A stretch of DNA of 64,000 nucleotides from a virus. The stretch covers positions 1-64,000 of IMG/VR virus record IMGVR_UViG_3300020162_001876, one strand, 5' to 3'. Positions 12,447 to 51,270 of the stretch are shown here, piece after piece. Position numbers and translations under genes: made by a program. Positions within the stretch are counted from its first letter, which is position 1. Each line of letters opens with the position of its first letter. The notes beneath the pieces were generated by a model, which did no database searches, was not told the DNA's origin, and saw only the letters and a program-made list of their open reading frames with translations.

Positions 12447-12941
12447 ATGAAATTAGATGCATTTAGAAAAATTATAAGAGAAGAAGTAAAGAAAGCCATT
12501 CAAGAAGAAATGAGAGAAGTTCTACTTGAAGCTGTAAAATCCTCTAGTAAACCTGGGATCCAATCTACATCACCTCAAATAGTAACTAAACCTTACTCTA
12601 AAGTAGATTCTACTTACAAACCTACTTTCTCAGACATAATTGCTGAAGAAAGAAAACCTATACCCTCAACTGGTAATATAATGTTAGATTTATTAAATGA
12701 AACTGCTCAAACCGGTGAATGGAGAACTTTAAATGGAGGTGAATTTAACGCTTCACAAGCTGTAGGTTGGTCTGGAGGAGCTCCAAATATGATGGGTGGT
12801 TCTAATACCCCTGTAGTAGCTACTGTGGATGAAATGATAAAATCGCAAGGTCCTGTTAGAGATATAAATAATGTAAGTATTGATGTAGTACCTGATTTTT
12901 CAAAATTCATGGGTGCTTTAAAAGAAAAAGGTAGTATTTAA
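12447..12941 (+). CDS. Virion-cluster protein with (L/I)xE leader, 164 aa
   Basis: The first 28 residues form a charged amphipathic helix (MKLDAFRKIIREEVKKAI and onward) with L26-L27-E28 before Ala29, matching the T4 gp21 cleavage pattern (L/I)xE. The rest is polar, low-complexity and glycine-rich (about 80-115). Similar leaders recur at 31905-38524. It lies between hub and wedge genes, so a tail role is also possible. Function not known. Confidence 0.65.
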   Translation: MKLDAFRKIIREEVKKAIQEEMREVLLEAVKSSSKPGIQSTSPQIVTKPYSKVDSTYKPTFSDIIAEERKPIPSTGNIMLDLLNETAQTGEWRTLNGGEFNASQAVGWSGGAPNMMGGSNTPVVATVDEMIKSQGPVRDINNVSIDVVPDFSKFMGALKEKGSI

Positions 12942-13354
12942 TGGCTTATAGTATAATTAATATTAGTCCTTTAGATTTACAACCTAGTAAAGGAATAGGA
13001 ATTCAAGTCCCTTTTAACGGAGCTACTGGATTAAATATTACTTATACCACTAAAGATTCTATTAAATCTAATATTTTAAATTTTTTCTTAACAGGGAAAA
13101 AAGAAAGAGTAATGAATCCTTCATTTGGAGCAGGGATAAGAGAACAATTATTTGAACAAATAGTTCAAGGTACTGTTCAAAATATAGAAGATATTATTAA
13201 ATTTGGGTTAACAGATTATTTCCCTCAAATTAAATTAGATAAATTAACAGTAAACACATCTCCAGACCAAAATTTAATTCAAGTATATTTTAGTTATTCT
13301 ATAATAAACACTAATATACAAGATGAAATTTTAATAAATTTTAATAATGGCTAA
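12941..13354 (+). CDS. gp25: Baseplate wedge protein gp25-like
   Basis: 137 residues with the GPW/gp25 family pattern: an N-terminal flexible part, TKDSIKSNILNFFLTGKKER, the conserved GERvMnPsFG-like segment (ERVMNPSFGAGIREQLFEQI) and a C-terminal strand region with VNTSPDQNLIQVYFSYSI. gp25 nucleates sheath polymerisation and belongs to the wedge with gp6. It overlaps the gp6 gene by 8 bases, the expected arrangement. Confidence 0.9.
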   Translation: MAYSIINISPLDLQPSKGIGIQVPFNGATGLNITYTTKDSIKSNILNFFLTGKKERVMNPSFGAGIREQLFEQIVQGTVQNIEDIIKFGLTDYFPQIKLDKLTVNTSPDQNLIQVYFSYSIINTNIQDEILINFNNG

Positions 13355-15224
13355 TACTAAAGCAGTACAATATTTAAATAAAGACTTTGATAGTTTAAAA
13401 GCACAGTTAATTAACTTTGCTAAAACTTATTATCCTAACACTTATAATGACTTTACAGAAGCGTCACCTGGTATGATGCTTATTGAGATGGCTTCATATG
13501 TTGGGGATATTTTATCATTTTATACTGATAATCAAATTCAAGAAAATTTTCTACAATTTGCTAAACAAAGAAAAAATTTATTAGCATTAGCTTATAATTT
13601 TGGATATCGTCCTAAAGTAACAAGTGCTGCATCAGTTGAAGTAAGTGTGTACCAAGTAGTACCTTCTACTATTAATAATAATCAATACATACCTGACTTC
13701 GGATATGCTTTAATTCTAGAAGAAGGAACTCAATTGCAAGCTAATACTAATGGGAATATATCATTTTATATAAATGAGAAAGTAGATTTTTCTAATTCTG
13801 GATCTTCCCCTATAGATATTTCAGTTTACTCTAATGATATTAGTGGTAATCCTTTATTTTATTTACTTAAAAAAACAGCGAAAGCTACGGCTGGAGCTTT
13901 AACTACAACAACATTTACATTTGGTAATCCTGAACGTTATCCTACCGTAACACTTACTGATTCTAATGTAATTTCTATAATTGGAGTAACAGATTCTGAT
14001 AATAATAAGTGGTATGAAGTACCTTATTTAGCTCAAGACACTATTTTTGAAGCTACTGAAAATACTGCTACTAATGACCCTAATTTATATCAATATAACG
14101 ATACAACTCCTTATTTATTAAAATTAAAAAAAGTACCTAGAAGATTTGTTTCACGTTTTAAAACAAATAATTCATTAGAATTACAATTCGGACCAGGTGT
14201 TTCATCTGGCGCTGATGAGGAAATTATTCCTAATCCTGATAATATAGGTTTAGGTTTACCTTATGGAGTTGATAAAATGATGACCGCTTGGGATCCTTCA
14301 AATTTTTTATATACTCAAACTTATGGTTTAGCACCCTCAAATACTACTTTAACAGTAACTTATTTAAAAGGAGGAGGAGCTATTTCAAATATACCTTCTA
14401 ATACTTTAACTAGAAGAATTGAAGGAACTAATACTTTCGCAGGAGAAGGGTTAGACCCTAATATGCAAAATACAGTAATTAATTCTTTAGCATTCACTAA
14501 TGAAGTTGCTGCAGTTGGTGGAGGAGATGGAGATACTAATGAAGAAATAAGACAAAATTCTTTAGCTATGTATCCTACACAATTAAGAACTATTACTGAG
14601 GATGATTATATTATTAGAACTTTATCTTTACCTTCTAAATATGGTTTAATTTCTAAAGCTTTTATTACTCAAGATATGGGTATAAGTGCTAATTATTCAA
14701 CAGATTTATTAGCTACTCAAAATCCTAATGCCCTTTCATTATATATTTTATCTAAAAATACAACAGGTAATTTAACAGTTTCTAACTTAGCTTTAAAACA
14801 AAATTTAAAAACATTTCTTTCTGAATATAGAATGGTAACTGATGCTGTTAATATAAAAGATGCTTTTATTATTAATATTGGAGTAAATTTTGATGTAGTA
14901 GTTAGACCTAATTATAATAATAAATTAATTATAAATAATTGTTTAAGTGTTTTACAATCTTATTTTAATATAGATAAATGGCAAATTAATCAACCTATTA
15001 TTATATCTGATATTTATAGTATTTTAGATCAAATAGAAGGTGTTCAAACCGTCCAAAAAGTAGAAATAATAAATAAAGCTGGGACCAGCTCAGGATATTC
15101 ACAATATGCCTATGATATTAAAGGGGCTACTATTAATAATATAGTTTATCCTTCTTTAGACCCAAGTATTTTTGAAATTAAAAATTTAACAACTGATATA
15201 CAAGGTAGAGTAGTTACTTTCTAA
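13347..15224 (+). CDS. gp6: Baseplate wedge protein gp6-like
   Basis: 625 residues. The start (YLNKDFDSLKAQLINFAKTY, then DFTEASPGMMLIEMASYVGD) is the hallmark of gp6/baseplate J-type wedge proteins. The central GGGAISNIPSNTL and GGGDGDTNEEIRQNS segments match the J-like core and the region that follows it. Length is close to T4 gp6. Two copies per wedge form the ring that triggers sheath contraction in T4. gp25 lies directly upstream. Confidence 0.9.
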   Translation: MANTKAVQYLNKDFDSLKAQLINFAKTYYPNTYNDFTEASPGMMLIEMASYVGDILSFYTDNQIQENFLQFAKQRKNLLALAYNFGYRPKVTSAASVEVSVYQVVPSTINNNQYIPDFGYALILEEGTQLQANTNGNISFYINEKVDFSNSGSSPIDISVYSNDISGNPLFYLLKKTAKATAGALTTTTFTFGNPERYPTVTLTDSNVISIIGVTDSDNNKWYEVPYLAQDTIFEATENTATNDPNLYQYNDTTPYLLKLKKVPRRFVSRFKTNNSLELQFGPGVSSGADEEIIPNPDNIGLGLPYGVDKMMTAWDPSNFLYTQTYGLAPSNTTLTVTYLKGGGAISNIPSNTLTRRIEGTNTFAGEGLDPNMQNTVINSLAFTNEVAAVGGGDGDTNEEIRQNSLAMYPTQLRTITEDDYIIRTLSLPSKYGLISKAFITQDMGISANYSTDLLATQNPNALSLYILSKNTTGNLTVSNLALKQNLKTFLSEYRMVTDAVNIKDAFIINIGVNFDVVVRPNYNNKLIINNCLSVLQSYFNIDKWQINQPIIISDIYSILDQIEGVQTVQKVEIINKAGTSSGYSQYAYDIKGATINNIVYPSLDPSIFEIKNLTTDIQGRVVTF

Positions 15225-19600: not shown

Positions 19601-22256
19601 ATACCCGGCTTTAAATGAGTTAAGGGATTTTTATTTCCAGAAATATTCTAAATCTCAAAATGTATTTGATTTAATAAAACTTTTATCTTACTTTGATAAT
19701 TCATTATTCAAAATGATAAAAGATTTTGTTCCTGCTAAAGCTAATTTATCAACAGGTATAGTAATTCAACCTCATATTTTAGAAAGAAATAAAACAGCAA
19801 GACAAGAACCTACACTAGAATTTGTTCAATTTAGTGGGTCTATAGAAGCAGCTTTCATAACTGGTTCTAATGGATTAGACACTGATTTGGACACTACTAA
19901 TACTATAACAACCCAATATCTATCAGGAAGTATAAATATAGTTAATACTGATAGAAGAGAATTATTTACAGGTGAATTAGGTGGAACAGAAATTATAGTT
20001 CATTCACAATCTTTAGAAAATATAGTTTATGAATATAATTCTATTTCTATATCTTCTTCTCAAGATGTAATAAATAATTTTTCAAGGTTACCTATTAATC
20101 CTGTTTTAAATAATGTTATAGGAGCTAGAACTTCTAATCGTTATTTAGATATAGATTACTCTTATAACCCTATAATACCTGTTAATTTTAATTTCTTAAC
20201 ATCTAGTTTATTTTTAAATTTAAGAACAAATGCTTTCCCTTTCTTAAATTCTACTGTACAAGATAGTAATTATACTTTACATAGACATATAACTCCTAGA
20301 TATTTAGGTAGTAAAAATATATCAGCTGCTTATAATATATTTACTCCAGGAGATAGTTCATATGGTTCAGAAGCTACTATTGATTATAATAATGTTAAAT
20401 TTGCTTATTTTAATGAATTAACATCTCAATCTTTAACATTCCCTGGTAGAACTAATGTTAATATTAAATATCTAATTGATAGTTCTTCTAATGTAATAGA
20501 ATTAACAGAGGCTAATAAGAATGTATTTGATGTTCAAAATATCTTTAATAAAACTAAAGCTAATATAGCATTAGAAAATATTAATCAACCTTCAAAACAA
20601 AAACGTATAAATGGATTAAAACCTATATATGCTGGAGGATTTAGATATGAACCTATTTTACAAAACTATTCATTAAGTGGAACAACACAAGCCTCTTTAA
20701 ATTTTAATTTAGAAAACGAAATAACATCATCAAATCCTGCATCAGGTTCATTAATAACATCTTCAGTAACTAATTTTATAGAAATAGGAGCACCTTCATT
20801 AATAACACCTATTACATTATCTCCTCCTTTAAACACTGATGGTTCTTCTATATCAGCAATTTTAAATTCAGGAATACAATTTGATGTAACTAGAAGGTTT
20901 GCTTCAAATGATACTATATACCAAAGAATAACAGGTCAAATAGAAGTGACTGTGAGTATATCCCCTCCAGGAAATCAAGCAATGTTATTATGGAGGGATA
21001 GTGGTCAAGGTCCATATTCAATCGCAATACCTTTTCCTCATCAAAGTGTAGATAATCTAACCCAAACTAATGGAACAGTAATTAATATGTGGGAAGATAT
21101 AAGATATATGACATTACCCGCAGGTTATATATCTATTAGTGATTATGGTCGAGGTGTAATTAGAAATTATATAGGCCCTTTAAATTTCTATCAACTCCCA
21201 GACTATAATTTCAATGATGGGATTGGTTGGATGGAAGTTAAATCCACAGGTACTGAAGCTATTTTTAATTTAACTAATGAGTTAAACTCATTTGGTTCAT
21301 TTACTTTTAATACAGGTTCAGGTGGTCCTTTCCCTATTGAATTTAATGATAATTTATCAATAACTGCTACTTTTCAAATTGACGGTTATATTGAATTGCC
21401 TCCTAATCAAGGAGAAGTGAATGGAACATCTATACCTTTAACTTTAAAACCCTTAAATGGTTCAGAAGGAGTTATTAGAACTACTTTTATTTTTAACCGA
21501 ACTAATACTAGCTCTAATATAAGATTTACACAAAATCCATCAGTTGATTTAGGTATAGGTGCTTTAGGTGAAAATTATATCTTAACAGACGCTCCTAATT
21601 TAATATATACAACTGTAATTATAGACAATGGGTACAAATCAGGCTCAGTAAGTGATGATAATTGGTATTTTGAAAGAGGTGCAAATGAGTATAATAAATT
21701 TACTCAATTAACTGCTTCATATGATTTATCTACTTTATATTCAAAATATGTTTCTTCACCTGTAGGGGAAGTAAATTATTTTACTCAAACTTTACCAACT
21801 GAGTCTATAAATGTTTATGGATTTCAAGAAATAAATGAAATTTTTAACCCTAAACCTGGAGATTTAATTAGATTTTATAATCATGAAGCTAATAAATATC
21901 CATTTACATCTGATTTTGAAAAAGAAATTATTAAAATAATACCACCACAAGGACCTATAGGCTCAGGCTCTTTCGGTACAGGTTCTTACGCTAATCGTTT
22001 AGTAATAGAGGTATTAGGAGATGATATACCTAATATATCCTGTATAAATAAAAACTCACTTCCAGGAGAAATAGGAAAAATTTTAAATTTCATTATAATG
22101 AGTAAAATACCTGACGAAACCAATATAATAATAATAGGTGAAAAAAATAACGGACAAACCTCAGGAGGAATTGTATTACCAGAAAATATAAATAATAATT
22201 TAAAAGAAGAAGCAGGTAATGTAGTTAAGAATTTAAAATCACAAAATTTAATTTAA
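16626..22256 (+). CDS. Giant baseplate/tail protein, 1876 aa, with LamG-like domain
   Basis: The largest gene in the window. Residues about 540-590 (ETYKRLYHNLPYLLKTRGTR, then GLNALINCFGIPETIL) match a conserved core of large tail proteins from Bacteroidota phages. Residues about 615-830 are a concanavalin/LamG-like sandwich (DTFEFRFKFDNTSSL, NTFYLGGTTDHPFSGSIQEF). Its middle includes a peptide (DFQARVIADGGTFEST, nt 18791-18838) also found in the small gene at 58371. The rest is Ser/Thr/Asn-rich beta sequence. It may replace the T4 wedge proteins gp7 or gp10; this is from position and size only. Confidence 0.75.
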   Translation: MEITNISQLDSNQFVNQDYKINDESLLNSLDISNEFGLPDDKVEVHVVSPNGDILNSIYDFRNYTTRQTVQGTSLYNQIELNPKVDLESFGINQGQYDITYYFYRPLFLSSETNKFYISEISSDRTEIKISNNNISYTDLGQSYLTFITERNSKAYYSDFILNFGDNKTYIGVNVAFDNSNEAYANLYIKLYEPLPTNIKLKDTFWIVESISEPYAFKVDTTFLAEATLDTISLRGPNINIELAEKANLTTPYLNLSTLLNSNISSSYQQLQSWLDEKSIEITVDYTEFYNFIHFSSAKERLENFKYKLTQIQSLQSDINAINNLSVSSSITYTSASVINLQNQLDTLIQKFDGYEYFLYYESGSNSWPKINSTKPYINSAVTTSAALTWFGSIDYTSPYYGGKILDADDYDINNKNYVWNNLPEYIKADSQNANLELFTSMLGQHYDYIWTYIKDITNLQVADNRINYGISKDLVADTLRNFGIKLYTNSRNQEDLYLTLLGIDSNNSTLPSTGSYLINNYVTASQYTIPDNDIVKETYKRLYHNLPYLLKTRGTRTGLNALINCFGIPETILKVKEYGGNKKDQDIIEQFNEKFNYSLKLNNTASLAIPFQPSYKQYLDTGFDNVYPDTFEFRFKFDNTSSLTQSLLQSQDNRLSVGITPSTSSYASLFFKVSGSGTNFITSSQITLPFYNKDWWNLNITKQSSSLSLFPSSSINQLVSDFQARVIADGGTFESTVCLLSDLNSLVTPNLTQNQYYTITVGNKDSNGIQYLTSSSLFITGTLTSSNAVFNSPNTFYLGGTTDHPFSGSIQEFRYWIDSIPISDFKDHILNPRSISFNGVTSSYNNLIFRLPLGSELDNTITASLFSVHPAVTASFTSASITSSKAVLNNYISSSYKTNNETFLVNTPNIGSITEIDEKVRIADPNLVSGDVLTPYISIQKPETFPYTTDLNIVEVAISPQDSINEDIIAQLGNFNIDEYIGDPRLASSGSYPALNELRDFYFQKYSKSQNVFDLIKLLSYFDNSLFKMIKDFVPAKANLSTGIVIQPHILERNKTARQEPTLEFVQFSGSIEAAFITGSNGLDTDLDTTNTITTQYLSGSINIVNTDRRELFTGELGGTEIIVHSQSLENIVYEYNSISISSSQDVINNFSRLPINPVLNNVIGARTSNRYLDIDYSYNPIIPVNFNFLTSSLFLNLRTNAFPFLNSTVQDSNYTLHRHITPRYLGSKNISAAYNIFTPGDSSYGSEATIDYNNVKFAYFNELTSQSLTFPGRTNVNIKYLIDSSSNVIELTEANKNVFDVQNIFNKTKANIALENINQPSKQKRINGLKPIYAGGFRYEPILQNYSLSGTTQASLNFNLENEITSSNPASGSLITSSVTNFIEIGAPSLITPITLSPPLNTDGSSISAILNSGIQFDVTRRFASNDTIYQRITGQIEVTVSISPPGNQAMLLWRDSGQGPYSIAIPFPHQSVDNLTQTNGTVINMWEDIRYMTLPAGYISISDYGRGVIRNYIGPLNFYQLPDYNFNDGIGWMEVKSTGTEAIFNLTNELNSFGSFTFNTGSGGPFPIEFNDNLSITATFQIDGYIELPPNQGEVNGTSIPLTLKPLNGSEGVIRTTFIFNRTNTSSNIRFTQNPSVDLGIGALGENYILTDAPNLIYTTVIIDNGYKSGSVSDDNWYFERGANEYNKFTQLTASYDLSTLYSKYVSSPVGEVNYFTQTLPTESINVYGFQEINEIFNPKPGDLIRFYNHEANKYPFTSDFEKEIIKIIPPQGPIGSGSFGTGSYANRLVIEVLGDDIPNISCINKNSLPGEIGKILNFIIMSKIPDETNIIIIGEKNNGQTSGGIVLPENINNNLKEEAGNVVKNLKSQNLI

Positions 22257-22975: not shown

Positions 22976-24019
22976 ATGAGCTTTATATCATTTAACGCTG
23001 AAGATTTTGTAGTAAGTGCTGATTCTATAACTTCTATATTATGGAGTAATAATCAAACTACTCTATCTAATTTTTTCACATCACCAACCTCTATAAACAA
23101 TAATGCTTATTTACAAGTATATGCTGAAAATCCTACCACTAACCCTACAGCCTTGCCTCAATTTTCAATTGCTTATGGGCAGGTAAACGGTTCAGGTTCA
23201 GTCCCTATTAATTCTTCTGTCGCAGGTTTATCCCCAACAAGAATTACTTATGGTCAATATAGAACCTTAGTTAATGGAGATGAAAATACAAATTTTAATT
23301 TTGGAGCTGGTAATACTAATTCTCCTGATTTTTATGTTCTTAACATAGGTAGAGCTAATTATAAAGAAAAATTATTCCTTGGTACTTTCAATTTAACCTT
23401 ATCAGGTTCTGATGGTACTAATCAATCTTTAATTCAATTGACTGATAACAGCACTCAAGTAACTACTTTAAATTATTGTGATGCTGGTAGAGTATTTGAC
23501 ATAGTAAGTGGTTCTAACGGTGCTTCAACTACATCAATCATAGCATCTAGTTCTGCGGCTGGATATACAGTATCAGGATCATATGGTAAATTCTTACCAG
23601 ATGTAGGTTTAATTATATTAAATGCTAGAGCTTTATCATTATCTGCGAGTTTTGGAGGTATAGGATTAATCCCAGGAACTGGAAATAATTCTACTACTTT
23701 AGGTAATACTAATTTGGGATTATTTAATGCTATTAATAATGGAAAATATTTTTCATTAAATAGTGAAGAAACTATAACTTCTGATTATATATTTGTTAGA
23801 ATCAAAAATAATGATTTTAACTATACTACTAACCCATCTATGATTAGTGGTAGTGGAGAATTTTATTATCCTTCATTAGTTAACAACCCTGAGACTTTTA
23901 TTACTACAGTTGGATTATATAATGATAATAATGAATTATTAGCTGTAGCTAAATTATCAAAACCCTTATCAAAGAATTTTACAAAAGAAGCTCTTGTTAG
24001 AGTTAAATTAGATTTTTAA
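22976..24019 (+). CDS. Fibre-block structural protein with shared C-terminal module
   Basis: 347 residues, Ser/Thr/Asn/Gly-rich with beta-type repeats. The last ~80 residues (FVRIKNNDFNYTTNPSMISG, then TTVGLYNDNNELLAVAKLSK and a PLS ending) are closely repeated in the 95-residue protein at 27098. The shared module probably docks fibre or baseplate parts. N-terminal section not recognised. Confidence 0.7.
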   Translation: MSFISFNAEDFVVSADSITSILWSNNQTTLSNFFTSPTSINNNAYLQVYAENPTTNPTALPQFSIAYGQVNGSGSVPINSSVAGLSPTRITYGQYRTLVNGDENTNFNFGAGNTNSPDFYVLNIGRANYKEKLFLGTFNLTLSGSDGTNQSLIQLTDNSTQVTTLNYCDAGRVFDIVSGSNGASTTSIIASSSAAGYTVSGSYGKFLPDVGLIILNARALSLSASFGGIGLIPGTGNNSTTLGNTNLGLFNAINNGKYFSLNSEETITSDYIFVRIKNNDFNYTTNPSMISGSGEFYYPSLVNNPETFITTVGLYNDNNELLAVAKLSKPLSKNFTKEALVRVKLDF

Positions 24020-24022
24020 TGA

Positions 24023-26053
24023 ATGAGTTTTTCATATAAAACATTAAGTTCAAATGATATTACTTTAACCTCCTATATAGCTAATAAGCAATGGGAGGTT
24101 AATAGTTTATCTTTATCGGAAAATGGTATTAAAATTTATATAGGAGAGAACATACCAATCACTTCTATTTCACCTTTTAATCCTACTAATGATACTGAAA
24201 CTACAAATGAGGAATATAGAAGACTAATATTTTCTTCTATACAACACCTTTTCTATAAAAACTATATATCAGGTTCCAACACAGGCTCATTTTTTAAATC
24301 ATCTTCATACATTAATTATGAACAATCTACTTTATCATCAGGTTCTTCATTATTAACTACTTTAAGATATTTACCTCAAAAAACAGGCAGTAGTAATCCT
24401 AATTTTTCATCTTATGATGAAGGTATAATCTATGATGGAGGTGGTTTATACGATGATACTTCGTATGACGGGGATAGAGGTAGTAAAATAGCAGTTATAT
24501 CAATTGACCAAAATATATTTGGCTCCGGGTTATCCCCTAATTCTGTATTTATGTCAAGTTCTACTTATTATTTAAGGGATGATGGTGAAGGAAATTTCTT
24601 TGATTATTATAATGAAGAAAATTATCTTAACCCTATTTCTTCATCTTTAATAGGTAATGTTTTTTATTCTTTTGGTTTAATAGTTATAACTAATGAAAAT
24701 TATTTATGTTCTTTAAATTTACCACCAACAGCTGTAAATGATTATTTTTCTAGCTTAAATTTAGATACACCAAAAATATTTGATATATTAGGAAACGATT
24801 ATTCAGATTGTGGTAATATACTTTTTGATAGTTTTACTACCCATTCTATAGAAGGATATACATTTCCAACTTTCACTTATGATAATGGATTTATAACTAT
24901 ATTAAACGAACAATCTAATTATATACCAGGAGAATATAAAATAGGATATACCATATTAAATAATAATTTAGTATCTAGTAATACTGCTTCTATAAATTTA
25001 AATATTACTTCAAATCCATTACAAATAGAAAATATAATAACTCAATCAGCTTGTTTTAATTCTACAGCTAGTTTACCTGTTACATTCTCTATAAATTATG
25101 GGGTACCTTATTATAGTTACTCTTTAAATGAAGGTAATACTTGGACAGGCTCTTTAAATCTATTTAATGTAATTGTAAGTGGAAGTATGACTTCTTCTTT
25201 TAATAATAAAATTTATGTGAAGGATTATTTAGGGGATATAGTAACTCAATCCTTTTCATCAAAATACCCTGAAGTAACTGCTAACATAGAAATACAAAAA
25301 CAACCATGTTCAATGGCTTCTAACGGTATAATTTATATATCAGGGGGTACAGCAATATCCGCCTCAGTTAATAATACTAGTTCAGCTTTACCTGCTACCT
25401 TTACAGGGATAGGGAGTACTTCTTACACTATAGGTTTAACAAGTAGTTTTGGATGTACTACTAGTTCAATTTTATCTGTAAATACAGCTATACCTTTAAC
25501 AGGTAGTGTTACTCAATCTAATGTAACTTGTTATAGTGGTTCAAATGGTTCTCTAATTGTTAACATTACTAATATAATTGATGAAGGGTTAACAGTATAT
25601 TTAAGTAAACCCGGACAAAGTATTTATAATAATATTCCTTTAGCTAATTTTGTTAATAATAGTATAACTGCTTCAAACTTATCAACTGGAAGTTATACAT
25701 TACAAATTAGTAATAATAATTTAAATGATTGCCAAAGCTTCTATCAAATAATTAATATAACTCAACCTAATCCAATATTATTTAATGTTACAGCCTCATA
25801 CATAAATTCATGTTCAAATCAAATAATATTTAATGCAACTGGAGGAAATGGTACTTACACATATTATGCTGTTAATACTAGTTCAAATGCGCAATACTCA
25901 TCAACAACTTCTCCATTAGACTTAGGTTCAACTAATGATGGAACATTTTCAACATTTGTTATAGATAGCAACAATTGTGTTTCTACTTCTTCTTTACTAA
26001 ATGTATATGGAAGAACTTATATTTATAGTGGATCAAGTTGTGAAAATAATTAA
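24023..26053 (+). CDS. Tail fibre/adhesin with SprB-like repeats
   Basis: 676 residues. Residues 1-230 are a phage-specific part (KTLSSNDITLTSYIANKQWE). At about 234 PPTAVNDYF followed by FDILGNDYSDCGN is the opening of a cadherin-like/Ig repeat of bacterial adhesins. From about 335 on come repeats with Cys and Gly at SprB positions, best seen at ~495-580: NVTCYSGSNGSLIVNI, LSTGSYTLQISNNNLNDCQS, then INITQPNPI. SprB repeats belong to Bacteroidota gliding adhesins. The phage protein may mimic or bind host surface adhesins. The role is inferred; the repeat similarity is visible. Confidence 0.75.
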   Translation: MSFSYKTLSSNDITLTSYIANKQWEVNSLSLSENGIKIYIGENIPITSISPFNPTNDTETTNEEYRRLIFSSIQHLFYKNYISGSNTGSFFKSSSYINYEQSTLSSGSSLLTTLRYLPQKTGSSNPNFSSYDEGIIYDGGGLYDDTSYDGDRGSKIAVISIDQNIFGSGLSPNSVFMSSSTYYLRDDGEGNFFDYYNEENYLNPISSSLIGNVFYSFGLIVITNENYLCSLNLPPTAVNDYFSSLNLDTPKIFDILGNDYSDCGNILFDSFTTHSIEGYTFPTFTYDNGFITILNEQSNYIPGEYKIGYTILNNNLVSSNTASINLNITSNPLQIENIITQSACFNSTASLPVTFSINYGVPYYSYSLNEGNTWTGSLNLFNVIVSGSMTSSFNNKIYVKDYLGDIVTQSFSSKYPEVTANIEIQKQPCSMASNGIIYISGGTAISASVNNTSSALPATFTGIGSTSYTIGLTSSFGCTTSSILSVNTAIPLTGSVTQSNVTCYSGSNGSLIVNITNIIDEGLTVYLSKPGQSIYNNIPLANFVNNSITASNLSTGSYTLQISNNNLNDCQSFYQIINITQPNPILFNVTASYINSCSNQIIFNATGGNGTYTYYAVNTSSNAQYSSTTSPLDLGSTNDGTFSTFVIDSNNCVSTSSLLNVYGRTYIYSGSSCENN

Positions 26054-26055
26054 AA

Positions 26056-27075
26056 ATGGCTAATACAGGATACTTAACTAGTTCAGGAATACAACAAGTT
26101 TTTACTACAGGACCTTTATCAGGTTCTGTAGTGACTTCAAGTTATTCAGTAGGTTCAACATTTTTTGGCCCTACAGTAAATTTTAAACAATCTTTTATAT
26201 CGGGTACTGTAGATTATATTTACCCATGTAATGATATCCCTCAAATATTTTACAGATATTATTTAAACCCATTATGCGCTTCATGTATAACACCTATATT
26301 ATATTCAGGAACAACTCCTTGTGAAGATTTACTTTATGATTTTACTTACACAATTGATAGAGGTATAGTTAATGCTTCAGACTCACCTTACACTGTAATT
26401 TATTATAGCACTTCACCAACTTTTACTTCTAATACGGGTTCATATATAAATAATAATAGTATTAATAGTAGCAGCATCAGTATTAATGTAAGTAGTAGTT
26501 TAACCTCACCAGTTCCTAGTCGTATAACCCCTATATATTTTAAAGCTTTTAACAGTTGTAGTGCTGTTTTATCATCTTCATTTTCAAATACTTTAATAGT
26601 ATCATGTAGTAAATATACTCCGTCTCCTACTAGTTCATATGAACCTTTTATATTAAAAATAAAAAATAGCTTTTTAAATTCTGGAACTTCTATTCAATAT
26701 ATTCATGATGGCTCTACTTACAACTTAGCAACTAACGCTTCATCTAGTATATATATCTATCAAGAAACCACTCCAACAGTATCAGTTAAAATTTTAGGAT
26801 TAAGAAGTTCTCTTGCTAATAATATAACAACAATAACTAAAGAAAATGGTTCTATAGAAGGTATAGTTTCAACTGTTATTAAAGATTCAACAGGTGCTAT
26901 ACGTAATGATGGGGGAAATACAACCATATATCCAACAGAAGCTTTAATAGATGTAGATAATATTAACTCTACTGTAGATTTAACAATTGATATTGATAGA
27001 GATACATTTACTGATCCTGGAACAGTGTTAGTGAATATAACAAATGCAGCACCTCCTATTTTTGAATTTGAATAA
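26056..27075 (+). CDS. Fibre-block structural protein, 339 aa
   Basis: Begins MANTGYLTSSGIQQVFTTGP, Ser/Thr-rich with a cluster of cysteines in the first third (YPCNDIP, LCASC, TPCED) that could form disulfides outside the cell. The C-terminal half is beta-rich with aspartates near 295-320. It follows the SprB-like fibre by 2 bases, so it is probably part of the same fibre or its chaperone. Not recognised by family. Confidence 0.65.
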   Translation: MANTGYLTSSGIQQVFTTGPLSGSVVTSSYSVGSTFFGPTVNFKQSFISGTVDYIYPCNDIPQIFYRYYLNPLCASCITPILYSGTTPCEDLLYDFTYTIDRGIVNASDSPYTVIYYSTSPTFTSNTGSYINNNSINSSSISINVSSSLTSPVPSRITPIYFKAFNSCSAVLSSSFSNTLIVSCSKYTPSPTSSYEPFILKIKNSFLNSGTSIQYIHDGSTYNLATNASSSIYIYQETTPTVSVKILGLRSSLANNITTITKENGSIEGIVSTVIKDSTGAIRNDGGNTTIYPTEALIDVDNINSTVDLTIDIDRDTFTDPGTVLVNITNAAPPIFEFE

Positions 27076-27097
27076 ATTTTAATTAAAAATAAATAAT

Positions 27098-27385
27098 ATG
27101 ACTAATAGTATTATAGGATTTAAAAGTGAATATATAATTTATGAAAACGAAATCCGTTGTAAAATAGGAGAAAATGATTTTAATATGTCTACTAATCCTA
27201 CTATAACAACTGATAATTCGGGTTCATTAAGGGATTTTGCTACTAGTTCATTCTTTGCTCCCTATGTTACAACTGTAGGTCTATATAATGAAAGAAATGA
27301 ATTGTTAGTAGTAGCTAAATTAGCTAAACCCTTATCCCTGTCTTCAGTAGCAGATACAACAATAGTAGTAAAATATGATATTTAA
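27098..27385 (+). CDS. Stand-alone fibre docking module, 95 aa
   Basis: Nearly the whole protein repeats the C-terminus of the protein at 22976: ENDFNMSTNPTI, then VTTVGLYNERNELLVVAKLA and a KPLS ending before a final beta strand. A single-domain duplicate of a module otherwise fused to a large fibre protein suggests a shared baseplate binding site. Confidence 0.7.
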   Translation: MTNSIIGFKSEYIIYENEIRCKIGENDFNMSTNPTITTDNSGSLRDFATSSFFAPYVTTVGLYNERNELLVVAKLAKPLSLSSVADTTIVVKYDI

Positions 27386-27396
27386 AAACAAAAATT

Positions 27397-27843
27397 ATGT
27401 GGTTATATAAAGGAAAAGAAATAAAAGAATTATCAGACATGCCCGAAAATACTTTCGGGTTTATCTATGTTGTAACACACACCCCTACAGGAAGAAAATA
27501 CTTAGGTAAAAAACAATTAATGTCAGTTCAGAAAAAAGCTTTAGGTAAAAAGGAATTAGCCTTAATTACTGATGGTAGAGCTAGCAAGAAAAAAACTGTA
27601 ATTAAAGAATCAGATTGGAAAACCTATTATGGTTCACATACTGAAATAAAGCAGTTAATAAAAGATAAAAAACATTTGGAATTTACAAGGGAGATACTTA
27701 CATTTGTTCCTACTAAGAAACTTCTTACTTATTATGAAACTAAATATCTTTTTATAAATGAAGTTTTAGAAAAGCAGAATGAGTATATAAATGATAATAT
27801 TCTTGGAAAATTTTATAAAAAAGATTTTGCCTCCCAAAAATAA
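27397..27843 (+). CDS. GIY-YIG endonuclease, SegE-like
   Basis: 148 residues. GFIYVV (21-26) and YLGKK (35-39) are the GIY and YIG segments; DWKTYYGSHTEIKQLI and F.REIL follow, and Y-E-T-K supplies the conserved glutamate. This composition matches SegE-like GIY-YIG proteins common in T4-type phages, free-standing homing or DNA-processing nucleases. It sits between structural and replication genes, an insertion site typical of mobile nucleases, but it has no sign of a disrupted neighbour. Confidence 0.8.
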   Translation: MWLYKGKEIKELSDMPENTFGFIYVVTHTPTGRKYLGKKQLMSVQKKALGKKELALITDGRASKKKTVIKESDWKTYYGSHTEIKQLIKDKKHLEFTREILTFVPTKKLLTYYETKYLFINEVLEKQNEYINDNILGKFYKKDFASQK

Positions 27844-29766: not shown

Positions 29767-30768
29767 ATGATTATTTCTGAAAGAAAACAATTAGGTACTG
29801 TATACCACTTTACTAAAATAACTTCTATAAAATCTATATTAGAATCTAATTCTTTTAAAGGGTCAGAGATAGGGACTTGGAATTATGAAAGAGATTTTCA
29901 ATTTTTTAAAAAAGATGAAAAATATTTTATAGAAAAAGGTATAACTCATTTATATTTTTTCTCTACTACTCGTAATAAATTACTTTATAAACAACCTTCT
30001 TTCGGTATAGGAGGAATGACAGCTCGTATTGTTTTAAATGGTGATAAATTATCTGATAAATACAGATTTGTTCCCTTTAAATACTATGAAGATGAACCTA
30101 AAGATCAAGGTTCAGATGAATCTGAAGAAAGAATTATATTAGGTCTTAAAAAAGAAATCCCTAACGCTAAAAATTATATTAAAGAAATTCATATAATGTT
30201 AGATATAATAGAGGATAATGAGGTTTATTTACAAGAGGCTGAAAAATTACAAAATTATGATCCTTCATTAATTAAACTTTATTATAAAGAGAAAGAAATT
30301 ACTATGGAAGATTATAGAAATAATATTTTACCTACTATAGAACCTTATAGAGATGAAGAATTAGATGAAAATGATGGGTCTTTTGAATACAGAGGGGGCC
30401 CAATATTACATGAAGGATTTACTCCTCAAAAAGCTCCATTAATGAAAAAATTTGTTGACTATGCTTGTGATAGGTTAAATATAGATGAACCTAAAGTTTT
30501 TATTATCAACTCACCGTCATACTCACAAAAATATAAAAGTTTTGGAGGGTACATGCCTTTAAATCAAGAAATAAAAGTAGTAGTTCATAATAGAAATATG
30601 GCTGATATTTTAAGAACTTTAGCTCATGAATTGGTTCATCATATGCAAAATTTAAATAATGATGAATTAAATGGAGAGGATGGTTCTGATAGTGAAAATG
30701 AAGCTAATGCAATGGCTGGAATAATAATGAGAGAATTTGGGCGTGAAAATCCTGAAATATTTGAATAA
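29767..30768 (+). CDS. Fusion of ADP-ribosyltransferase-like domain and zinc metallopeptidase
   Basis: 333 residues. The first half has TVYHFTKITSIKSILESNSF (11-30), THLYFFSTTRN (60-70) and an acidic ESEERI (118-123), resembling ADP-ribosyltransferase-type folds, where H, a Ser/Tyr region and E act on NAD. This is tentative. The second half has H287-E-L-V-H291 (LAHELVHHMQN) and E312 in ENEANAMAG, the signature of a zincin metallopeptidase. The start MIISE with I3-S4-E5 fits a very short (L/I)xE leader. It begins the cluster of possible internal head proteins under a late box. The peptidase call is solid, the transferase call weak. Confidence 0.7.
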   Translation: MIISERKQLGTVYHFTKITSIKSILESNSFKGSEIGTWNYERDFQFFKKDEKYFIEKGITHLYFFSTTRNKLLYKQPSFGIGGMTARIVLNGDKLSDKYRFVPFKYYEDEPKDQGSDESEERIILGLKKEIPNAKNYIKEIHIMLDIIEDNEVYLQEAEKLQNYDPSLIKLYYKEKEITMEDYRNNILPTIEPYRDEELDENDGSFEYRGGPILHEGFTPQKAPLMKKFVDYACDRLNIDEPKVFIINSPSYSQKYKSFGGYMPLNQEIKVVVHNRNMADILRTLAHELVHHMQNLNNDELNGEDGSDSENEANAMAGIIMREFGRENPEIFE

Positions 30769-49341: not shown

Positions 49342-51270
49342 ATGGTAGATACTTCATTCTTTGGTAGATTACAAAGATTATTTTCAACAGATGTAATAAT
49401 AAGAAATGTTGGAGGTAATCAATTAAAAGTAATGGATACAGATCGTATCCAACAACTTGGTACTATCCAAACAAACTCACTTTATGATAGATATAATAAA
49501 GTTTATACTACTACAGGTGGACTAAATTTTAATTATAATAATGATTTATCATATCCTACTACACGTATTCAGTTATACACTGATTATGAATTAATGGATA
49601 GTGATTCAATTATTGCTTCTACATTAGATATATTAGCTGATGAAACTTGTTTAAGAAATGATTTAGGAGAAGTATTACAAATACGATCTTCAGATGAAAC
49701 CATACAAAAAATACTTTATAATTTATTTTATGATGTATTAAATATCGAGTTTAATCTTTGGTCTTGGACTCGTAATATGTGTAAGTATGGCGATTTTTAT
49801 CTTAAATTAGAAATATCAGAGAAATTTGGTGTATATAATGTAATACCATTTTCTTCTTATTCTATTATTAGATTAGAAGGTAAAAATCCTGAAAAGCCGC
49901 AAGAAGTAAAATTCAAATATGATCCAACTTTTACATCTCAACAATCACCATTAGGTCCTCAAGTTATTTCTAATTATAATCGCAATACTAATGAAGGTAT
50001 AATTTTTGATAATTATGAAATGGCTCACTTCAGATTATTATCTGATTTTAATTATTTACCTTATGGTAGATCTTATATTGAGCCTGCTCGTAAAATTTTC
50101 AAACAATTAACTTTAATGGAAGACGCGATGTTAATACATCGTATTGTAAGAGCACCTGAAAAACGTACATTCTTTATTAATGTTGGTAATATTCCACCTA
50201 ATGAGGTAGAAAATTACATGCAAAAGACTATTAATAAGATGAAGAAAACTCCGCATATTGATCATCAAACTGGTGAATACAATTTAAAATATAATATGCA
50301 AAACATTCTTGAGGATTTTTACATTCCAGTAAGAGGTGGAGATGCAACTACAAGAATTGAGACTACAAAAGGATTAGAATACACTGCTATAGAAGATGTT
50401 ACTTATTTAAGAGATAAATTATTCGCTGCTCTTAAAGTTCCAAAAGCTTATTTTGGATTTGAAAAAGATTTAACAGGTAAAGCAACTTTAGCTGCTGAAG
50501 ATATTCGTTTTGTAAGAACTGTAGAGAGAATTCAAAGAATATTAATATCTGAATTAACCAAAATTGCTTTAGTTCATTTATACTCACAAGGATATGATGG
50601 GGAGTCATTAACTAATTTTGAATTATCATTAACAGTTCCTTCAATTATATATGAACAAGAAAAAGTAGCCTTATTAAAAGAAAAATCTGGATTAGCTACT
50701 GAATTATTACAAAATAAAATTGTTCCTACTGACTGGATTTATGATAATATTTTCCATTTTAGTGAAGATCAATATGATGAATATAGAGATTTAATACTTG
50801 AAGACGCTAAACGTAAGTTTAGAATAGATCAAATTGAAACTGAAGGTAATGATCCTTATAAAACAGGTGAAGCTTATGGTACGCCACATGCTTTAGCATC
50901 ACTTTATGGTTCTAGTAGATATCCTGGTACAGAAGGTGTGCCAAAAGGGTATAATGAAGATGGTGATACTTATCCTGATCAAGTATTAGGACGTCCTAAA
51001 GAAAGATCATCAAATATTAATACTCAAGATAGTGCTCTAGGTAAAGATAGATTAGGTAGAATTGGAATGAAAAAAGATGATTCTGAATCTAAAGGATTTA
51101 AAACTTCTTATAAAGGTGGTTCTCCATTAGCTTTAGAAAATGTTGCAACACAAGCAATTTATCATCAAATTTCAAATAATTTAAAAAATATGTTCCCTCA
51201 ACGTAAAATAAAATTGTATGAAGAGAGCGATTTATTAAATGAAGATAACCTTTTAAAAGAAGATAAATAA
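49342..51270 (+). CDS. gp20: Portal protein gp20-like
   Basis: 642 residues. YELMDSDSIIASTLDILADE near 86-105, then MCKYGDFYLKLEISE and LPYGRSYIEPARKIFKQLTL, followed by VGNIPPNEVENYMQKTINKM and LKVPKAYFGFEKDLTGKATL, are gp20 landmarks. Length is longer than T4 gp20 owing to a polar C-terminus (about 540-642) that ends with two LLNED/LLKED repeats of (L)xE type. Twelve copies form the packaging vertex. Adjacent to terminase as in T4-type genomes. Confidence 0.93.
   Translation: MVDTSFFGRLQRLFSTDVIIRNVGGNQLKVMDTDRIQQLGTIQTNSLYDRYNKVYTTTGGLNFNYNNDLSYPTTRIQLYTDYELMDSDSIIASTLDILADETCLRNDLGEVLQIRSSDETIQKILYNLFYDVLNIEFNLWSWTRNMCKYGDFYLKLEISEKFGVYNVIPFSSYSIIRLEGKNPEKPQEVKFKYDPTFTSQQSPLGPQVISNYNRNTNEGIIFDNYEMAHFRLLSDFNYLPYGRSYIEPARKIFKQLTLMEDAMLIHRIVRAPEKRTFFINVGNIPPNEVENYMQKTINKMKKTPHIDHQTGEYNLKYNMQNILEDFYIPVRGGDATTRIETTKGLEYTAIEDVTYLRDKLFAALKVPKAYFGFEKDLTGKATLAAEDIRFVRTVERIQRILISELTKIALVHLYSQGYDGESLTNFELSLTVPSIIYEQEKVALLKEKSGLATELLQNKIVPTDWIYDNIFHFSEDQYDEYRDLILEDAKRKFRIDQIETEGNDPYKTGEAYGTPHALASLYGSSRYPGTEGVPKGYNEDGDTYPDQVLGRPKERSSNINTQDSALGKDRLGRIGMKKDDSESKGFKTSYKGGSPLALENVATQAIYHQISNNLKNMFPQRKIKLYEESDLLNEDNLLKEDK

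Follow-up and report, generated by a model that had tools for sequence, protein, structure and literature searches.

The receptor-binding parts of myophages of Bacteroidota are poorly known, and the locus described here raises the question of what repeats of the kind carried by bacterial surface adhesins are doing in the tail module of what is probably such a phage. The locus lies in a 64,000 nt stretch of viral DNA (the window), part of an incomplete virus record of 110,998 bases, where an initial annotation made from the sequence alone had placed a tail fibre with SprB-like repeats at 24023-26053; the ORF and its coordinates are correct, with 676 aa encoded on the + strand. That the repeats belong to a phage structural protein of the tail module is likewise supported, the "tail" being judged from synteny with baseplate wedge genes.

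These gp25- and gp6-like baseplate wedge genes are found upstream, at 12941-15224, the T4 gp6-like one (13347-15224, + strand) matching PHROG 219 at E 1.9e-19 and being 49% identical to the baseplate wedge protein of Flavobacterium phage vB_FspM_immuto (immuto). The gene order is the same as in immuto, from the baseplate wedge gene to gp165 and then the SegE-like gp170, and identity to this phage is 62% for the portal (49342-51270) and 77% for the tail-module ORF 22304. A further upstream tail-module ORF (22976-24019, + strand, 347 aa) is the orthologue of immuto gp164, with 50% identity. Given this homology to immuto the virus is taken as a T4-like phage whose host is probably one of the Bacteroidota; the Bacteroidota phage of the initial annotation thus stands on the relationship to immuto, the repeat itself not giving the "strong support" that had been claimed for it. 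The second-best portal match, at 53%, is to a record named Microcystis phage Mel-JY01 (PP395634.1), whose stated Microcystis host looks odd for the lineage. In the same part of the window, 27397-27843 encodes a SegE-like GIY-YIG endonuclease (Pfam E 2.5e-30) for which the PHROG family label "NAD synthetase" is apparently misleading, and a 333-aa ORF at 29767-30768 has a HELVH metalloprotease-like motif close to its C-terminus.

The protein starts with an N module (aa 1-230, 24023-24712, + strand as for all the parts that follow), a conserved domain of the tail module that immuto gp165 also has, presumed to be the virion-anchoring part. Next comes a cadherin-like or bacterial-Ig-like module beginning with PPTAVNDYF (aa 231-335, 24713-25027), already singled out in the initial annotation. 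It is a real conserved domain, kept in all orthologues and in the syntenic relative L127 (85.9 bits in the latter), and it is its assignment to a bacterial Ig/cadherin type that is weak, there being no Pfam match to aa 231-335 and hhalign values of 25% and 6% against two consensus sequences written by hand (shuffles up to 1.8). Four further domains complete the chain. D1 (aa 336-415, 25028-25267) is an Ig-like beta-sandwich of marginal SprB kinship (hhalign 38.5%, pLDDT ~80), and D2 (aa 416-488, 25268-25486; 90.9% over 70 columns, pLDDT ~80-90), D3 (aa 489-583, 25487-25771; 97.9% over 77 of 78 columns) and D4 (aa 584-665, 25772-26017; GG..YTY ... D.N.C, 97.5%, pLDDT ~85-90) are SprB-like repeats. 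D3 is the repeat that had been read at residues ~495-580, and the degenerate copies reported on both sides of it, D2 and D4, are real as well.

These percentages come from hhalign against a bacterial SprB profile of 78 positions that covers the full repeat, built from 55 bacterial loci with a search seed that was a consensus written from general knowledge; the five of the 55 reference repeats that were checked in Pfam are all PF13573, at 44-61 bits (cut-off 28). With the same profile the N-terminal region scored ~0 and column-shuffled or reversed controls stayed below 3, so that statistically supported homology over the repeat unit was found for D2-D4 (90.9-97.9%), and in D2 and D3 the alignment runs over nearly the whole length of the bacterial repeat. 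Profile searching, proposed in the initial annotation as a check, therefore gave a divided answer: a profile-profile match for D2-D4, and none for the window protein on its own, which has no Pfam match even at E 10 (and so falls short of the PF13573 gathering cut-off of 28 bits), nothing usable in single-sequence PHROG and NCBIfam scans, and in a PDB sequence search only weak matches, to two "decoration protein" chains (5lxk and 8zvi, E 0.025-0.045).

Could the likeness then be one of composition, a Ser/Thr/Asn-rich beta-protein sharing no descent with SprB? The lack of a Pfam match and the large composition bias corrections for the window protein would fit such an origin, which is nevertheless extremely improbable and was already disfavoured on the evidence of ordered profile-profile matches with clean controls and of shuffle tests. 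Twenty orthologues were obtained from viral contigs and 19 sequences aligned; when searched with the SprB profile by hmmsearch, the window protein scored 8.4 bits (best domain 10.3, the stretches aligned in D3 being 491-516 and 548-583) and the best orthologue 46. The best-domain score was reached by none of 200 local shuffles in any of the 19 sequences, and the full score exceeded all 200 in 15 of them, the window included, the exceptions being L004 and L017, which did no better than many of their own shuffles, and L014 and L016, which were equalled by one or two. Furthermore, whilst 8 of the 19 orthologues match PF13573 below the cut-off (best 21.7 bits), L127 passes it at 55.5 bits (E 4.3e-15) with four clear repeats, and is 32% identical to the window protein over 530 residues. 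As L127 combines repeats above the cut-off with the same flanking domains, it ties the degenerate copies of the window to unmistakable SprB copies and speaks against composition as the source of the resemblance. Judged by their sequences, D2-D4 are distantly related to the SprB repeats found in surface adhesins of bacteria.

The structure prediction that had also been called for agrees with this, AlphaFold2 giving four confident beta-sandwiches across aa ~330-665 and nothing usable N-terminal of them; the N module was modelled with low confidence both within the whole chain and alone (pLDDT 25-39; alone 39). The Ig-like fold of the repeats is thus predicted with confidence, and it is synteny that suggests an anchoring role for the N module. 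In Foldseek many chains of Ig/FN3 type were matched, the nearest solved bacterial structures being fragments of the Aureispira grappling-hook protein GhpA and the best viral match a "SprB repeat" protein of an uncultured Caudovirales phage (BFVD A0A6J5LD72; E 9e-13, 20% identity). Whole-chain TM-scores were low, as would be anticipated when a flexible rod of several domains is compared with its N-terminus unmodelled.

An Ig-like repeat of this type is by no means confined to one lineage. A pair of consensus SprB repeats matches 287 phage records, mostly of phages of enterobacteria, and the PF13573 cut-off is passed, to give two examples, by Wac of Lw1 (46.4 bits) and Hoc of a Klebsiella phage (36.1 bits), both of which score higher in Ig_3. 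SprB in phages is therefore one face of a broad Ig-like group, as far as sequence profiles can tell, and since Pfam SprB also picks up fibritin and Hoc in T4-like phages of enterobacteria the repeat implies neither a host phylum nor gliding. A literature search on SprB repeats in a phage or tail context returned nothing apart from work on polymorphic toxins. A further 75 viral contigs were found to have SprB repeats. Seven viral loci (L131, L139, L142, L157, L159, L160 and L161) have ORFs of ~700-1240 aa with seven SprB-profile repeats at near-constant spacing, and in L131, L142 and L159 a nearby ORF on the opposite strand ends in a weak match to GLYN, a module discussed below. Eight loci (L104, L123, L124, L128, L129, L144, L148 and L166) have a gp6-like baseplate wedge gene just upstream of an ORF of 1390-1575 aa, with SprB-like repeats in its C-terminal part.

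The closest parallels among T4-like phages are Hoc and fibritin (Wac), such as Lw1 Wac and Slopekvirus Hoc, which combine Ig-like repeats with a conserved anchoring domain, a combination that here is suggested by synteny, and which reach 46 (Wac) and 36 bits (Hoc) in Pfam SprB. The window protein may then, like Hoc of T4, bind polysaccharide, mucus or particles weakly and so keep the phage near its hosts, having no part in the receptor-binding step itself. Hoc carries variable Ig-like domains in a row and has been called an environment-sensing device (PMC10385173), and Ig-domain adhesins of gut phages are described as raising retention (PMC13370021); the SprB matches of Hoc and fibritin could be read in the same direction. 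Those proteins sit on the neck or capsid and have unrelated anchors and Ig_3 matches, whereas synteny places the window protein, with its N module, in the baseplate region and not on the capsid, and general environmental adhesion is accordingly rated as quite unlikely.

In bacteria, SprB repeats are present in many proteins of Bacteroidota, and giant ORFs filled with repeats of this type are found in 7 of 8 Bacteroidota genomes (chosen for carrying SprB loci), where the matches are restricted to the repeat part of the profile. D2-D4 resemble the PF13573 repeats of the T9SS adhesins of this phylum in their tandem order and in aligning with them, including C..G.NG, L..G.YT and ITQP. They differ in being three diverged copies, as against long near-identical arrays, and in belonging to a phage tail-module gene in which no T9SS sorting domain was found. 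Capture of a host adhesin module, one of the origins suggested in the initial annotation, is plausible, but repeats of 80 residues that are so diverged reveal neither the direction nor the donor of any transfer. The other suggestion, direct binding to the gliding apparatus, is unsupported. It would have the repeats bind host SprB, by homotypic contact or mimicry, with the moving adhesin as receptor, and it draws on reports that gliding and T9SS mutants of flavobacteria are phage-resistant, SprB and RemA having been proposed as receptors (PMC13288928, PMC7345892). That resistance concerns the host's own adhesin and not the phage repeat. No SprB-specific region was found in the phage protein, and no T9SS C-terminal sorting domain in it or in the product of the adjoining ORF 26056 with Pfam or NCBIfam, a match to Por_Secre_tail in one orthologue being at chance level (E 0.21). 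Moreover, since the repeats are of a generic kind in Bacteroidota and phages of non-gliding enterobacteria have them as well, sharing them does not imply mutual binding, and such an interaction is considered very improbable.

What is new here is the anatomy of the insertion, that is, the difference between a compact and an interrupted form of the same gene. The compact gene (~300-390 aa) consists of the N module and a C-terminal "GLYN" module and was found at 79 loci, immuto included, by searches with a compact query, which favours this form. The interrupted form, found at 29 loci (the window, 27 further contigs and L127), consists of the N module, the cadherin-like/SprB array and, further on, a separate GLYN ORF; the last is seen in all of them but L017, whose contig ends too early. 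In immuto gp165 (QQO92083) a single 357-aa gene carries homologous N and GLYN modules in the same gene order, unlike the window in having no cadherin-like or SprB array. In the window both modules of the gp165 family are present on separate ORFs, 24023 and 27098: the N module is 38% identical to gp165, and a 95-aa ORF (27098-27385, + strand) is 36% identical to the gp165 C-terminus (E 9e-18) and scores 86 bits against the compact-gene profile. Positions 3-242 of that profile are found in ORF 24023 and 241-357 in ORF 27098, so the halves complement each other, and it is exactly at the end of the N module that the cadherin-like module begins. The orthologue of gp164 upstream also ends in a GLYN module, by a match to the GLYN profile. 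Between the halves lies ORF 26056 (26056-27075, + strand, 339 aa), the product of which is probably the distal part of the same structure. About half of the orthologues have it fused to the C-terminal end of the array, in one chain of ~1000 aa, and in all the unfused orthologues examined a homologue is directly downstream.

In a tree rooted by long-branched outgroups, a single branch (support 96/57; recovered in 96% of bootstrap trees) sets the interrupted form apart. The compact form also occurs in the distant phage LR756508, for whose homologue a search for relatives found none. The simplest reading of these sequences would be a single insertion of the array into an ancestral compact gene, and we infer from them that the compact form came first. 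In immuto, gp165 is followed first by separate tail fibre and spike genes (gp166-169) and then by the SegE homologue; the window has none of these genes at that place, and three of the four were not found in the incomplete 111-kb record, in the missing part of which fibre genes may lie. It is possible, if on the whole improbable, that a bacterial adhesin cassette (cadherin-like plus SprB) entered the middle of a conserved tail gene once, in T4-like phages of Bacteroidota, replaced the separate fibre and spike genes in host recognition, and has been kept variable by recombination at domain borders.

The rod is the faster-evolving part of the protein. Mean pairwise identity among the orthologues is 70% for the N module, 45-46% for D2 and D3 and 53% for D4, and between the window and its close relative L001 nucleotide identity is 98-100% in the N module, ~65-72% across D1-D3 and ~93% in D4. 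The changes of level fall near nt 25011-25045 and 25771, at the domain borders where D1 and D4 start. Other tracts of this pair, which has a background of ~70-80% nt identity, are equally mosaic (ORF 16626, 26280-27100 and beyond 27900), so that exchange reaches beyond the rod and selection on D1-D3 is not proven. The picture is one of recombination at domain borders in two phages that are mosaic in general, and the idea of D1-D3 as a uniquely hypervariable cassette is weakened. In ORF 16626, which encodes a 1876-aa tail-module protein, a divergent tract at 20730-21480 (63-81% nt identity to L001) lies between near-identical tracts.

Ig-like repeats often serve as spacers. The rod could, on this analogy, be passive, a spacer or decoration that binds nothing itself and holds another receptor-binding part off the baseplate; the binding tip could then be the product of ORF 26056, which about half of the relatives have fused to the end of the array. 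A contact surface would account better for the faster divergence and the exchange of D1-D3, even if other tracts are mosaic too, and a mere spacer is rated as unlikely. Swapping of outer domains by recombination is what would be expected of a part that meets the host surface, and the rod most likely helps the phage to hold that surface. A precedent is gp98 of Cellulophaga phage phi19:1, a virion protein supported by mass spectrometry according to its record, which also has SprB-profile repeats (30.5 bits, shuffle maximum 6.8). It differs from the window protein in belonging to a different phage family, with no flanking-domain kinship found, and it lies below Pfam detection, not being listed by Pfam SprB.

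The account that we favour, as more likely than not, is of a baseplate-associated adsorption protein with a swappable Ig-like rod. The N module and the separately encoded GLYN module (27098-27385) would anchor the protein in the tail. From there a rod would point outward, made up of the cadherin-like module and the four Ig-like domains (D2-D4 being SprB-like) and lengthened by the product of ORF 26056. The array would have entered an ancestral compact tail gene a single time, parting its two halves, and the outer domains of the rod would since have been swapped between phages by recombination. The homology of the domains, their predicted fold, the anatomy of the insertion and the mosaic exchange are what the analysis shows; the place of the protein on the virion and its binding to a ligand of the host surface are inferred.

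For those who annotate phage genomes, a SprB label on a phage protein denotes an Ig-like repeat, which by itself identifies neither gliding nor a Bacteroidota host. The compact/interrupted pair marks out the added segment together with the modules that likely anchor it. A candidate adsorption rod is thereby recognised in 29 loci, for which the cultivated relative immuto, having no rod, is a natural control.
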